A DNA stretch of 48,478 nucleotides from Gammaproteobacteria bacterium. Lineage in GTDB: Bacteria > Pseudomonadota > Gammaproteobacteria > Methylococcales > Methylomonadaceae. The notes beneath the pieces were generated by a model, which saw nothing but the letters and a program-made list of their open reading frames with translations, did not search any database and was not told the DNA's origin. The stretch is from positions 1 through 48,478 of the forward strand of contig VGVA01000008.1 of NCBI GenBank assembly GCA_016874115.1, given 5' to 3'. Positions 2,710 to 47,908 of the stretch are shown here, piece after piece (within the stretch, counting starts at the first letter, position 1; the number at the start of each line of letters is the position of its first letter). The position numbers and the translations under genes are program-made.

Positions 2710-3618
2710 TTACGAAGCCGATTTGATGTAATCCTGCGCTACTTCGAAAGCATGTTCAAAGTGCAGGTAAACGGGTTTGTTGGTTTCGATCATTCGTTTT
2801 AACAAGCGGTTTTGCGCCTGATATTTAATGTTGCCGATGGCTAACGCGCCGATGCCGACCGCACCGCTACCGGAGCCATTAATCGGTGTGCCGTTTTGCA
2901 TGGCGTCTACACCTGCAATACCGGCTGGCGGCACTGCGTTCACGTCGGCGGCGACTTTTAATTGCGGCGCAGAGGCAACCAGTTCCGCGCTCAATAATTC
3001 AATGCCAGCAGCGCCTGTTGCTACGACGATGTCAGCGGTTTTAATGTATTCGGCTTTGTCGGCGTCCGCACCGGCGGCAATGGCTATTTTGCCTTCGCCG
3101 AATTCAGTATTGCACATATCGGCAATACCCTGCGCTTTTTCCAGTTGGCGGCCGATAATTCTGACGTTTGCGCCCGCTTTGGCGGCGATAACTGCTGCTG
3201 CTTGCCCGACGGGGCCAGTACCGCCAAGAGCGATCATGTTTTTGCCTGTCAAGCCGGTATTGAATTTGCTATTGAGTTCACGTTCTACTGCCGCCATCAT
3301 ACCGGCTGCGGTGGTAAAGGCCCCGCTGGGATCGGCAAAAACGGAGACTTCGAAGGGCGGCACCATGGCTTGTTTGGCGGCTTTGAGCATGTCCATCGCC
3401 TGTTTGGTATCGCGCCCGCCGATAAAAATCGCCGTCCGTTTCAGGTTTTTGGTACTGCGTGAAAAGATGGCGTCCTGGACAAGACCCTGAACTTCGCCGG
3501 GTTCAACATTAATATAAGGCACCGCGGAAACCCAGCCCGCATCCATTGCCATATTGACATCGAATGGGCTGAGATTTTTTGCTGTGGTCAGCATGTGTAA
3601 GATGTAAGGTTTTTCCAT
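2710..3618 (-). CDS. mtdB: Methylene-tetrahydromethanopterin dehydrogenase (MtdB-like, NADP-type signature)
   Basis: A 302-residue paralogue of the next gene and first in the operon. It has the same MtdB hallmarks: SPFDVNMAMDAG (17-28), TAIFIGGRD (62-70), VPPFEVSVFADPSGA (86-100) and a DVNAVPPAGIAG loop. The nucleotide site GGTGPVG at 132-138 is followed by IIGRQLEKAQ, with Arg157 after the second strand, as in NADP-dependent MtdA (CGRKLDKAQ). This predicts NADP preference, unlike the neighbour, which has Asp at the equivalent place. The start has a clear GAGG site. The product feeds methenyl-H4MPT to formate production and NADPH to biosynthesis. Confidence 0.88.
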   Translation of the reverse strand: MEKPYILHMLTTAKNLSPFDVNMAMDAGWVSAVPYINVEPGEVQGLVQDAIFSRSTKNLKRTAIFIGGRDTKQAMDMLKAAKQAMVPPFEVSVFADPSGAFTTAAGMMAAVERELNSKFNTGLTGKNMIALGGTGPVGQAAAVIAAKAGANVRIIGRQLEKAQGIADMCNTEFGEGKIAIAAGADADKAEYIKTADIVVATGAAGIELLSAELVASAPQLKVAADVNAVPPAGIAGVDAMQNGTPINGSGSGAVGIGALAIGNIKYQAQNRLLKRMIETNKPVYLHFEHAFEVAQDYIKSAS

Positions 3619-3645
3619 GTGTGATCCTCAAGTAAACAGCGCGAG

Positions 3646-3674
3646 AGTATAAAAGATATTTGCTTATCTGAACA
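3646..3674 (-). promoter_or_regulatory. Candidate sigma-70 promoter of the mtd operon
   Basis: On the minus strand TATACT (plus 3646-3651) lies 17 bp after TGTTCA (plus 3669-3674), just upstream of the first mtd gene. The -10 matches five of six consensus bases; the -35 is weak. Confidence 0.4.
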
Positions 3675-3726
3675 CTGGTCGATTGATTAATACTGTTATG
3701 AATACAAGCATTAATTATTAATGAAA

Positions 3727-5997
3727 TTAATTCTTTATCTTATAATTCCAATACTTGCCAGATGATTTGCGCCACGTTTCCAGGTTGGGCCGTTGTTCGA
3801 TATCTGCGATTATAGCGCCGTCGTCCGCGCTTTTGCGCCAATTAATCTTATGGTTGCGGTAACGCGCCAGTACGTCTTCGTGCGGATGTCTGAACTGATT
3901 GCGGTAACCTGCAGGTATCAAAATAACTTCGGGTTTAACTGCATTTAGAAAACGGCTGGTTGATGATGTTTGGCTGCCGTGATGCGGTGCTATTAATAGG
4001 TTGGCGGCGAGCCGTTCCCGATAGGTTTCGGCCAGCCACGTTTCCGCATCGGCTTCGATATCGCCCGGCAATAACGCTGAGCCGTGCTGCGATTGAATGT
4101 GCAGCACACAAGAGTTGTTGTTATCCGAAGGAAATGTTTTAGAACCCGGCGACAAAATGGTAAACCTGACGTCATCCCACTGCCAGGACTGCTTAGCGGT
4201 GCAGGCAATCGGCGAATGCTGGCTTAGCATTGCCGGTACACTGGTGACGACTTGCCCGGTATTAATGGTTTTTAATAAAGATTCAGCGCCGCCGATGTGG
4301 TCGTTATCGCCGTGGCTGATAATTAAAGTATCAATATTATCAATACCCTGGCTACGCAGATAAGGAATAATCACGCTTTGCCCGCTATCGCTATGGGCAG
4401 AAAATTTCGCGCCGGTATCGTACACCAGCACATGTTTTGCGGTTTGCACCACGGCGGATAAGCCCTGGCCGACATCCAGTAAAGTCAGTTTAAAGGTTCC
4501 CGGGTTTGGCTTTTCCGCCGCTGAAAAAATCAACGGAAACAACATAACCAAACCGAGCCATCGTAGCGGTATGCCTTTGGGTGCGAGCAACAGCAGGATT
4601 GCCGGTACCGCAAACAGGAATGTCCACCAAGACAACTGCGGATGAGAAACGGTCGATAAGGGCAGGGCGGCAAGTTGAACCAGCAGCCACCATAAACCTT
4701 GCAAAATCCAATCGACCAGCAGAAACAGCTTTGCCGCCAGTAACGGGCTGATAAATAAGATTAATGTCGCCATTAGTGCAACGGGAACCGCGATTAAACT
4801 GATCAGCGGCGCGGCCAGCAAATTGGCCAGAGGGGCTATTAATGAAACCTGCTGGAAAAAAAATAAGGTTAATGGGGTTAAGCCAAGCGAAGCCACCCAG
4901 TTGATTTTAATACTGCCGCTAAGGAATCCTGGTTGTTGCAAGCGGCCTGCCAAGGTATAAATAATCAGGCTGACCGCAATAAACGACAGCCAGAATCCGG
5001 GTAGCAGCACAACCAGCGGATCCAGCAACAACACAGCCCATAAGGCTAAAGTCAAAACATGAAACGGTTTGCTGTGTCGCTGCCTGCTGACAGCAAGCAT
5101 TGCAATGGCAACCATGAATGCCGCCCGTTGCGCAGGCACCGAAAAGCCGGTAAGACCGGCGTATAAAAACGCCACTGACAAGGCAGACATGGCAGCGGCG
5201 CTTTGCGGCGAAATCGCGATAATACCGGTTCTGAGCTATATCTTTCTGATTATCCAATATGCCAAAGCGGCAATCAGGCCGATATGCGAACCGGAAATAA
5301 CCATTAAATGCGTGGTTCCTGTTTGCCGGAAAACCTCCCATTGGGTGGCGGTTAGACTACTGCCGTCACCCAGAGTGAGCGCTTTGATTAATGGCAGGTT
5401 AGGGTAGTTTGCCAGCAGGTTGTCCAGCCGATCGGCTAATTGTTGCCGCCAGCCACTTAAACCGAACGAGGCTTGCCGACTGGTAAGCAAAATGGGTTGC
5501 GGCCGGTCGCGGATATAACCGTTGGCTCCGATGTTTTCAACCAGCAACCAGCGTTCGTAATCGAAACCGCCGGGGTTAAAATTGCCGTGCGGCGGTTTAA
5601 GACGAACTGTTAATCGCCATTGTTGACCCGCTTTCGGCATTGTTTCGGGATGATACCAGGTAAGCCTCAGCTTGGCGGGAACGGTTCTGGCGGATTTGGT
5701 GACGGTTAAGTTAAAGCGGGTATGGTCGTTCTCGTATTCCGGTAGATCGGCAATAATACCCTCTATTTCAATATCTTTTCCTGCCAGCTGCTCCGGCAGA
5801 CGTTGTTCCAGGCGGTTAGCGGCAACAAGCGCCGCCCAAAGAAAACCGATGATTAAAAATACGCAGAGCCAGTAGCGGTAAAACGCCAGCACCAGCGCGG
5901 TACAGGCAACCGCAAGCAGGGCCGGTTTGTCCGGTAACTCCGGCAGTTGTTGCACCGATAGTACGCCCGTAAGAAAACATAAAGCCCGTGCAATCAT
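3727..5997 (-). pseudogene. comEC: ComEC/Rec2 DNA-uptake channel, interrupted by an in-frame amber codon
   Basis: The reading frame from ATG 5997 to TAA 3727 would encode about 756 residues, normal for ComEC, but TAG occurs at 5236-5238 with no frame change. The upstream part (253 codons) has the N-terminal membrane helices, the DUF4131-like domain and the start of the competence channel (VISGSHIGLIAALAYW). The downstream part continues in phase with 15 codons and then 487 codons from the next ATG at 5190. It contains the channel motif GFSVPAQRAAFM, many membrane helices and a C-terminal metallo-beta-lactamase domain (ISHGDNDHIGG, LLPGDIE, APHHGSQ). ComEC carries single-stranded DNA across the inner membrane during transformation. 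The gene may be a recent nonsense mutant, a readthrough case, two polypeptides or a base-call error. It is divergent from the DUF2062 gene. Confidence 0.85.
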
Positions 5998-46800: not shown

Positions 46801-46976
46801 AAGCCCGCCGGACAGTCACCGCTAATTTAAGTTTTGGCGAATGGGTGCAGGTCTTTGGGGATGCCAAAATGACCACCGCACTACTCGACAGGATTACCCA
46901 TCATTGCGATATCCTGGAAACCGGCAACGATTCCTTTCGATTTAAGCAACGCAAAAAGGCGGTAGAAAACCTATAG
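46800..46976 (+). pseudogene. istB: 3' fragment of an IS21-family istB
   Basis: The frame read from 46803 gives the IstB C-terminal signature [39 protein letters not shown] and RFKQRKK, ending in TAG 46974-46976. IstB is the AAA+ transposition helper of IS21 elements. The Walker A and B parts and all of istA are missing upstream, so this is a remnant. The element end lies at 47040. Confidence 0.85.
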
Positions 46977-46987
46977 CCTTACAGTTT

Positions 46988-47040
46988 GTCTGGAAACTAT
47001 TCGGCGCTCTTTAGTGGAAACTTTTCAAAGCCGTTTGACA
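46988..47040 (+). repeat. Right end of the IS21-family remnant
   Basis: Two iterated terminal motifs occur: TCTGGAAACT (about 46989) and GTGGAAACTTTTCAA (47014-47028). The end reads CCGTTTGACA. Its complement TGTCAAACGGCTTTGAAAAG aligns with the left end at 48223, including the TG terminus expected of IS21 elements. Confidence 0.75.
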
Positions 47041-47379
47041 GCCAGGTATGTCGCGCTTCGTGATAATGAATGTTTTACTAAAAATCTTATCACTGTTCAT
47101 GCTCTCCACTACTATGGCGGTCAGTCCGATCTGGACAAGGTTAATGACTATCTGGCGCATTTGATTTCAGATAGCAATCTGCATGAAGCCAAATTGACGG
47201 AGCTTTTTAATAAACCGTTTCAGTTCATCGAATCGCCTCATCATTGGAAAGCCATTGAGCGTCTGGCGGCTTATCTACTGGACAACAGTACGAAAACAAC
47301 CGTCAGCAGTGAGGAAGCCATGGCAGTGCTGGATGGAGATGCTAATGGTGACAGGAATTCTTGGACCAGGCAGACTTGA
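47041..47379 (+). pseudogene. Gene fragment truncated by the IS21 end
   Basis: The frame from the IS end to TGA 47377-47379 encodes about 112 residues: ARYVALRDNECFTKNLITVH, then YYGGQSDLDKVNDYLAHLIS, and so on. It reads like a soluble helical domain, but no family is recognised. A GTG at 47014 inside the IS terminus could start translation, giving a 121-residue fusion. The original 5' end was probably removed by the insertion. Confidence 0.45.
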
Positions 47380-47442
47380 AATACACAAACTAAAAAAGGC
47401 ATCAAATTCAACCGCACCAATGGGTTGATCATCATTTAATCC

Positions 47443-47488
47443 AGTTAAATATATTTAACTTGACATAAATAGTGATTTAGAGTAGGTT
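47443..47488 (+). promoter_or_regulatory. Promoter and palindrome upstream of the Cys/His-rich protein
   Basis: The perfect 18-bp palindrome AGTTAAATATATTTAACT (47443-47460) abuts a perfect -35 TTGACA (47460-47465). A 17-bp spacer follows, with an internal dyad TAAAT-AGTG-ATTTA, then TAGGTT (47483-47488). The arrangement suggests regulated expression, perhaps by a metal-sensing regulator; that is inference. Confidence 0.5.
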
Positions 47489-47521
47489 GAAGTCTCCTGT
47501 AGTCAAAAGGGAGAAATTGTT

Positions 47522-47908
47522 ATGAAAATTCAATTTTTAGTGCTGACATTTGCGCTGTTTATCTCGTTCGTGTCCACCTGGGCATGGGCGGAAACTAGTC
47601 AACCCCAGCACTGTGATATCCATAAAACCGACGCCGCACATGATTGTGCCAAGCATTGTGCTCTGCATCCAGGCGAAAAAGACCAAGCCTGTGCTAAGCA
47701 CTGTGCACCGGATACAATGACTAAAGCACATGTCTGTGATACGCCGCACTGCGATAAACATTTAGCGATGGCTGCGAAAAGCTGCGCGACAGAAAATTGT
47801 TCAAAGCATGAAGGCATGGCCGCACATAACTGCGGTACGGAGCATTGCGCCAAACACGGCGGTAACATGGCCGATTGTTGTGGCACCACTCAGCGCTGCG
47901 AAGTTTAA
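47522..47908 (+). CDS. Exported Cys/His-rich protein, candidate metal-binding
   Basis: A 128-residue protein. A signal peptide ends near residue 23 (TWAWA-ET). The mature part, about 105 residues, contains 14 cysteines and 13 histidines and no Phe, Tyr or Trp. Repeated units of the form C-x-K-H or H-C-x-K-H occur about six times (CAKHC, CAKHC, HCDKH, NCSKH, HCAKH). A GGGAG ribosome site precedes the ATG. Export of so many soft-metal ligands points to copper or another thiophilic metal in the periplasm. It is not recognisably a copper storage (Csp) or metallothionein family member. Confidence 0.75.
   Translation: MKIQFLVLTFALFISFVSTWAWAETSQPQHCDIHKTDAAHDCAKHCALHPGEKDQACAKHCAPDTMTKAHVCDTPHCDKHLAMAAKSCATENCSKHEGMAAHNCGTEHCAKHGGNMADCCGTTQRCEV

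Follow-up and report, generated by a model that had tools for sequence, protein, structure and literature searches.

Introduction

Bacterial metallothioneins of the SmtA type are small, cytosolic proteins rich in cysteine and histidine; SmbP is histidine-rich, Csp1 is exported, and the Cu(I) protein CorA is copper-repressible. According to one report, Csp1 and Csp3 are cysteine-rich copper proteins of methanotrophs (PMC5171941), and another presents bufferins as exported, cysteine-containing copper binders that are modified by MNIO and act against excess copper (PMC12452194). Two further papers report transcription of corA-corB at low copper (PMC3912023) and induction of corA by copper limitation (PMC11784148). 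Copper decides the mode of methane oxidation in methanotrophs, yet for the gammaproteobacterial members little is settled about its sensing and acquisition.

Here, we analyzed a stretch of DNA of 48,478 nucleotides (the window) that carries a gene for a small exported Cys/His-rich protein. We consider it rather likely, at a probability of about 0.6, that the family to which this protein belongs consists of lineage-specific exported metallothionein-like proteins within a Methylococcales copper-limitation regulon, probably binding Cu(I).

Results

The gene, recognized by its open reading frame and translation and by the conservation of its family, encodes 128 amino acids at 47522..47908 on the plus strand. 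It is preceded by a ribosome-binding-like AGGGAG (47508..47513, plus strand) and by a promoter-like pair, TTGACA (47460-47465) and TAGGTT (47483-47488), separated by a 17-base spacer (47460..47488, plus strand). All of these elements were picked out by eye; the promoter also aligns with those of relatives, and the place of its -35 box was computed. Residues 1–23 (MKIQ...AWA; 47522..47590, plus strand) form, by eye, a signal peptide with an apparent cleavage site between AWA and E, leaving a mature part of 105 residues with 14 cysteines, 13 histidines and no phenylalanine, tryptophan or tyrosine. Both the reading frame and this composition confirm the initial annotation, which had described an exported protein with 14 Cys and 13 His in about 105 mature residues and no aromatics.

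Sequence and alignment delimit a repeat region at residues 30–126 (47609..47899, plus strand), in which one cysteine pair recurs every 15–16 residues in about six units, the last of them degenerate; the pairs run from C-x3-C (twice) through C-x4-C (three times) to CC...C. The motif C-x-K-H occurs exactly five times (residues 42, 57, 77, 93 and 109), compared with a mean of 0.15 in 100,000 shuffles of the protein, none of which reached five. The six similar units originally claimed thus survive as cysteine-pair units but not as exact C-x-K-H motifs.

Over 128 codons, the window gene and its relative at L003 differ 22, 17 and 72 times at codon positions 1, 2 and 3, respectively, and in comparisons with relatives 4–7 of the 14 cysteine codons are altered synonymously with every cysteine retained. 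Because the differences fall mostly at third positions and the cysteines persist despite synonymous change, the reading frame appears to encode a protein under selection. By this codon pattern, the gene retains an intact coding sequence under constraint, and the window copy most likely makes a working protein. The host, which groups with Methyloglobulus, encodes a pMMO/AMO-family subunit (PF02461, E 5.2e-129), in agreement with its earlier designation as a methanotroph.

With the window protein as query and E values of up to 10 allowed, searches returned no family from Pfam or NCBIfam and no PDB chain. AlphaFold2 models of nine sequences gave no confident fold (pLDDT 53, short helices). We found no earlier description of the protein family or of the operator presented below in the literature searched, mostly outside subscription journals; within it, both look undescribed, and it yielded no expression data on a family member.

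We then analyzed the distribution of relatives. A search with the window protein placed them in 9 of 61 near genomes, its own counted, and eight loci were found in GTDB contigs of Methyloglobulus, Methylobacter and one unclassified Methylococcaceae MAG. Profile A1 was positive in 39 of the 237 genomes of the host's bacterial family, representing 7 of 29 genera. At the level of the order, 27/201 genomes were positive, all within the same bacterial family. With this profile, the window's own genome was the sole positive in samples of the class (369 genomes, the other 368 gammaproteobacteria giving none) and of the phylum (398 genomes, the other 397 Pseudomonadota giving none). Across 12 aligned members, all 14 cysteines and 11 of 13 histidines are invariant, and some genomes carry two to three copies. 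Long forms with extra units occur in one genus, with 22 positive genomes (G543, of the same genus, is negative); a lipobox, detected with a simple pattern, replaces the AxA site in 21/21 long forms examined, mostly from that genus, and relatives of the window protein's length keep the AxA-type end of the signal peptide. These small exported Cys/His-rich proteins are a conserved, lineage-specific family of methanotrophs.

The genes of the relatives share a near-perfect 30-bp palindrome, ATTAAACTGTGTTAwATAACACAGTTTAAT, that lies upstream and abuts the -35 box. With up to five mismatches to its 28-mer within 200 bp, the family as a whole carries the operator of the proposed Methylococcales copper-limitation regulon at 26 of 34 genes (14/34 with up to three mismatches), compared with 0.000 genes expected from dinucleotide shuffles; these counts cover the 34 distinct family genes that could be scored, a 35th (L096) being left out as not scorable. 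The eight exceptions have 13 mismatches (the window), 14 (L023), 9 (L090), 8 (L007 and L015), 7 (L006) and 6 (L010 and L083). The best operator matrix scores at L006, L007 and L015, the same loci as L018, L019 and L022, are 14.5, 25.6 and 14.0, respectively. In 126 kb comprising the window, eight loci and a pmo locus, each of the nine sites that score at least 10 is located upstream of a family gene, at a distance of no more than 350 bp, for a matrix trained partly on such sites.

The window copy departs from this pattern. Its operator (47434..47460, plus strand) aligns with the relatives' palindrome, from whose right half it lacks 4 bp, and now reads as a palindrome AGTTAAATATATTTAACT (47443-47460); with 13 mismatches, this 4-bp deletion and a matrix score of -5.2, it falls outside the regulon as defined by the operator, and the decay suggests altered or constitutive expression. 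Good operator sites are kept elsewhere in the same genome, on contig C26 before a gene of the 'HTG...THGC' family described below; the regulator is therefore probably present and the window gene alone would have drifted. To the left lies the 3' remnant of an istB gene of an IS21-type element (46815..46976, plus strand; PF01695, E 7.6e-19, profile positions 190–238 of 238). To the right, a likely IS21-type istA start, cut by the contig end (48327..48478, plus strand), was recognized by eye and gave only generic HTH matches. Given its decayed operator and its place between IS21 remnants, the window copy may have left the regulon. The suggestion that the gene sits on a mobile segment is partly right, in that IS21 remnants flank it. 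Plasmids and viral contigs yielded no relatives. Separately, an ORF at 47014-47379 is similar, on visual inspection, to the C-terminal part of a longer protein encoded close to the L019 family gene (3053-3784); it has the look of a truncated leftover next to the IS21 end.

The operator also occurs at other genes. With up to three mismatches, the 28-mer was matched in 19 of 61 genomes and its reversed-pattern control in 0/61. Twenty-two loci fetched by the motif included four with members of the window family and three with TonB receptors, whose top NCBIfam match was TIGR01778, below its cut-off; one operator-linked TonB receptor matched OprC structures (E 6.3e-11). Among the remaining loci were HMA/ATPase-cat_bd clusters and unnamed exported proteins. 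Since these first loci had been picked by motif, we then tested loci picked by protein. For TIGR01778-like receptors, the operator core with at most one mismatch was found within 900 bp at 14 of 28 loci, 30 having been fetched and two of them dropped as further pieces of genes already counted. Mononucleotide shuffles predict 0.12 such loci, and gene bodies gave 0. Starting from corB-like peroxidase loci, we identified 12 corA homologues. A site scoring at least 10 lies upstream of seven of ten (expected 0.07), two homologues being left out for too short an upstream region; two of those with a site match PDB 4BZ4, a 'copper-repressible polypeptide' (E 9.6e-30 and 6.8e-32). No site was found at the other half of the receptors (14/28) or at 3/10 corA homologues. 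The corB-like genes themselves have a site within 1.5 kb upstream in 9/30 cases (expected 0.30).

A shorter core gave 1–13 forward-strand sites in each of eight genomes, against 0–2 for its reversed control. These sites also lie upstream of FecI-FecR-TonB receptor operons and of thioredoxin/DUF4266/DUF3570 clusters, several of them assigned by eye, and some genes linked to the operator lack any recognized connection with copper. To our knowledge, none of the Fur, Zur, FNR, CRP and NrdR operators fits well. Two candidate regulators were set aside because each is a single case: a TetR gene that follows two sites in L118, and a CRP-family gene in L018.

Several further observations concern genes near such sites. 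At TonB copper-receptor-like genes of other families in the order (L055, L056, L063, L064 and L066), the core TGTGNNATATNNCACA is often doubled upstream, with centers about 22 bp apart, as if two dimers sat side by side. A family of exported proteins of about 300 amino acids, marked by 'HTG...THGC', is often found behind a copper-type operator (L119:3173-4096 on contig C26 of the window's genome G000, and L030, L035, L042 and L131) and has no match in Pfam or the PDB. Their identification as CorA was dropped, as PDB searches gave no support and the true corA homologues adjoin corB-like peroxidases; the count of sites at these genes (6/7) was set aside as evidence because the loci were motif-fetched and three of the seven coincide in a single place. 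At L029, L031 and L037, a long ORF with a MTLPPHSIPSQS-like start, ATP-grasp-like by eye, is divergent from HMA/small-membrane-protein clusters, with the operator in between.

Discussion

The placement of most family genes behind the same operator as known low-copper genes suggests that these proteins catch or pass on scarce copper, with the sign of regulation borrowed from corA of other species. The probable role of the family is Cu(I) capture or relay in the envelope. Under copper shortage, relief (or activation) of the operator would allow the protein to be synthesized and exported. DsbD or TlpA-like thioredoxins could perhaps maintain its cysteines in the reduced state, and copper that has entered via OprC-like receptors and undergone reduction at the membrane would then be captured as Cu(I), to be held or handed to cuproprotein assembly such as that of pMMO. 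We infer this whole order, from low copper through expression, export, reduction and Cu(I) capture to hand-over. Several points fit it: the thiol/imidazole pattern; a dsbD gene at L017 that shares with a family gene a divergent intergenic region containing the operator; PepSY_TM neighbors of family genes at L019 and L020; and an SMBP gene about 3.5 kb from the family gene at L016. A PepSY_TM protein is proposed as a periplasmic copper reductase in PMC13038864.

The same composition would suit any soft metal, and the two to three copies in some genomes would suit capacity, as expected of an exported metallothionein-like sponge against excess or toxic Cu, Zn, Cd or Hg rather than a protein for copper acquisition. 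We regard such a sponge as unlikely, since the operator is the one common to corA homologues and OprC-like receptors, that is, to low-copper or import genes, and since no efflux or oxidase detoxification genes were recognized beside family genes in eight 10-kb-class loci, apart from an RND-type outer-membrane lipoprotein seen by eye in L023. Copper had initially been guessed from composition alone, with either a metal buffer or a scavenger in view. That guess now gains independent regulatory support through an operator that family genes have in common with corA homologues and TonB copper-receptor-like genes, albeit not through the decayed operator of the window copy itself; between the two roles, the operator context favors scavenging or relay at low copper over buffering or detoxifying an excess.

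The fourteen cysteines are also an even number set in regular pairs, and the protein is exported into an oxidizing space, where they may be in disulfides, which counts against Cu(I) binding. Together with the short helices of the weak AlphaFold2 model, this could describe a structural or redox protein of the envelope, stapled into helical hairpins by its CxxxC/CxxxxC pairs, with the histidines secondary. However, eleven of the histidines equal the cysteines in invariance, the proposed regulon is of copper type, there is no hydrophobic or aromatic core, and the fold is of low confidence; this explanation seems to us quite improbable. A bufferin- or methanobactin-like precursor with MNIO-altered cysteines is hardly credible even though the protein is precursor-like, exported and Cys-rich and the window's genome has an MNIO gene on contig C105 (PF05114, E 3.7e-104), because in tblastn against the fetched loci the encoded protein matches only its own locus (L133) and no family-gene locus, a search that a distant MNIO could escape, and the gene has, by eye, a Cys/Met-containing neighbor as its likely precursor. 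That locus (L133:4102-5476), in which the MNIO-type gene just follows the small exported Cys/Met-containing protein, is a bufferin-like cluster in its own right.

Returning to copper capture from scarcity, the family provides a candidate for a copper carrier, and the operator common to its genes offers a way to isolate the regulator and catalogue the targets, which makes a 'copper switch' directly testable. More tentatively, and with doubt prevailing, an unmodified ribosomal Cys/His-rich protein might serve gammaproteobacterial methanotrophs as envelope copper catcher in place of methanobactin, switched on by an undescribed copper-sensing regulator acting at the TGTGTTATATAACACA operator, which would be the missing Methylococcales copper switch. 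If true, corA, OprC-like receptors, thiol reductases and several exported protein families as yet unnamed would all be under the control of this operator.

Among known systems, SmbP (PF16785) is likewise a small exported metal binder, but the window protein does not match the SMBP model. Bufferins differ in that no MNIO gene was found near family members. Csp1 and Csp3 are four-helix bundles, whereas the window family has no Pfam match and no predicted four-helix bundle (weakly so for the fold, at pLDDT 53), and its histidines are conserved like its cysteines. The copper-repressible surface proteins CorA/MopE share with the family export, restriction to methanotrophs and the same operator, yet no sequence relation was seen: a PDB search with the window protein, allowing E values of up to 10, returned nothing from a set containing 4BZ4. 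Like the SmtA-type metallothioneins, the window protein is small, Cys/His-rich and free of aromatics, and it probably has little fold without metal; it matches no metallothionein model of Pfam or NCBIfam at E up to 10, and its family is set apart from these cytosolic proteins by being exported or lipidated and built from C-x3/4-C-x-K-H units of 15–16 residues.
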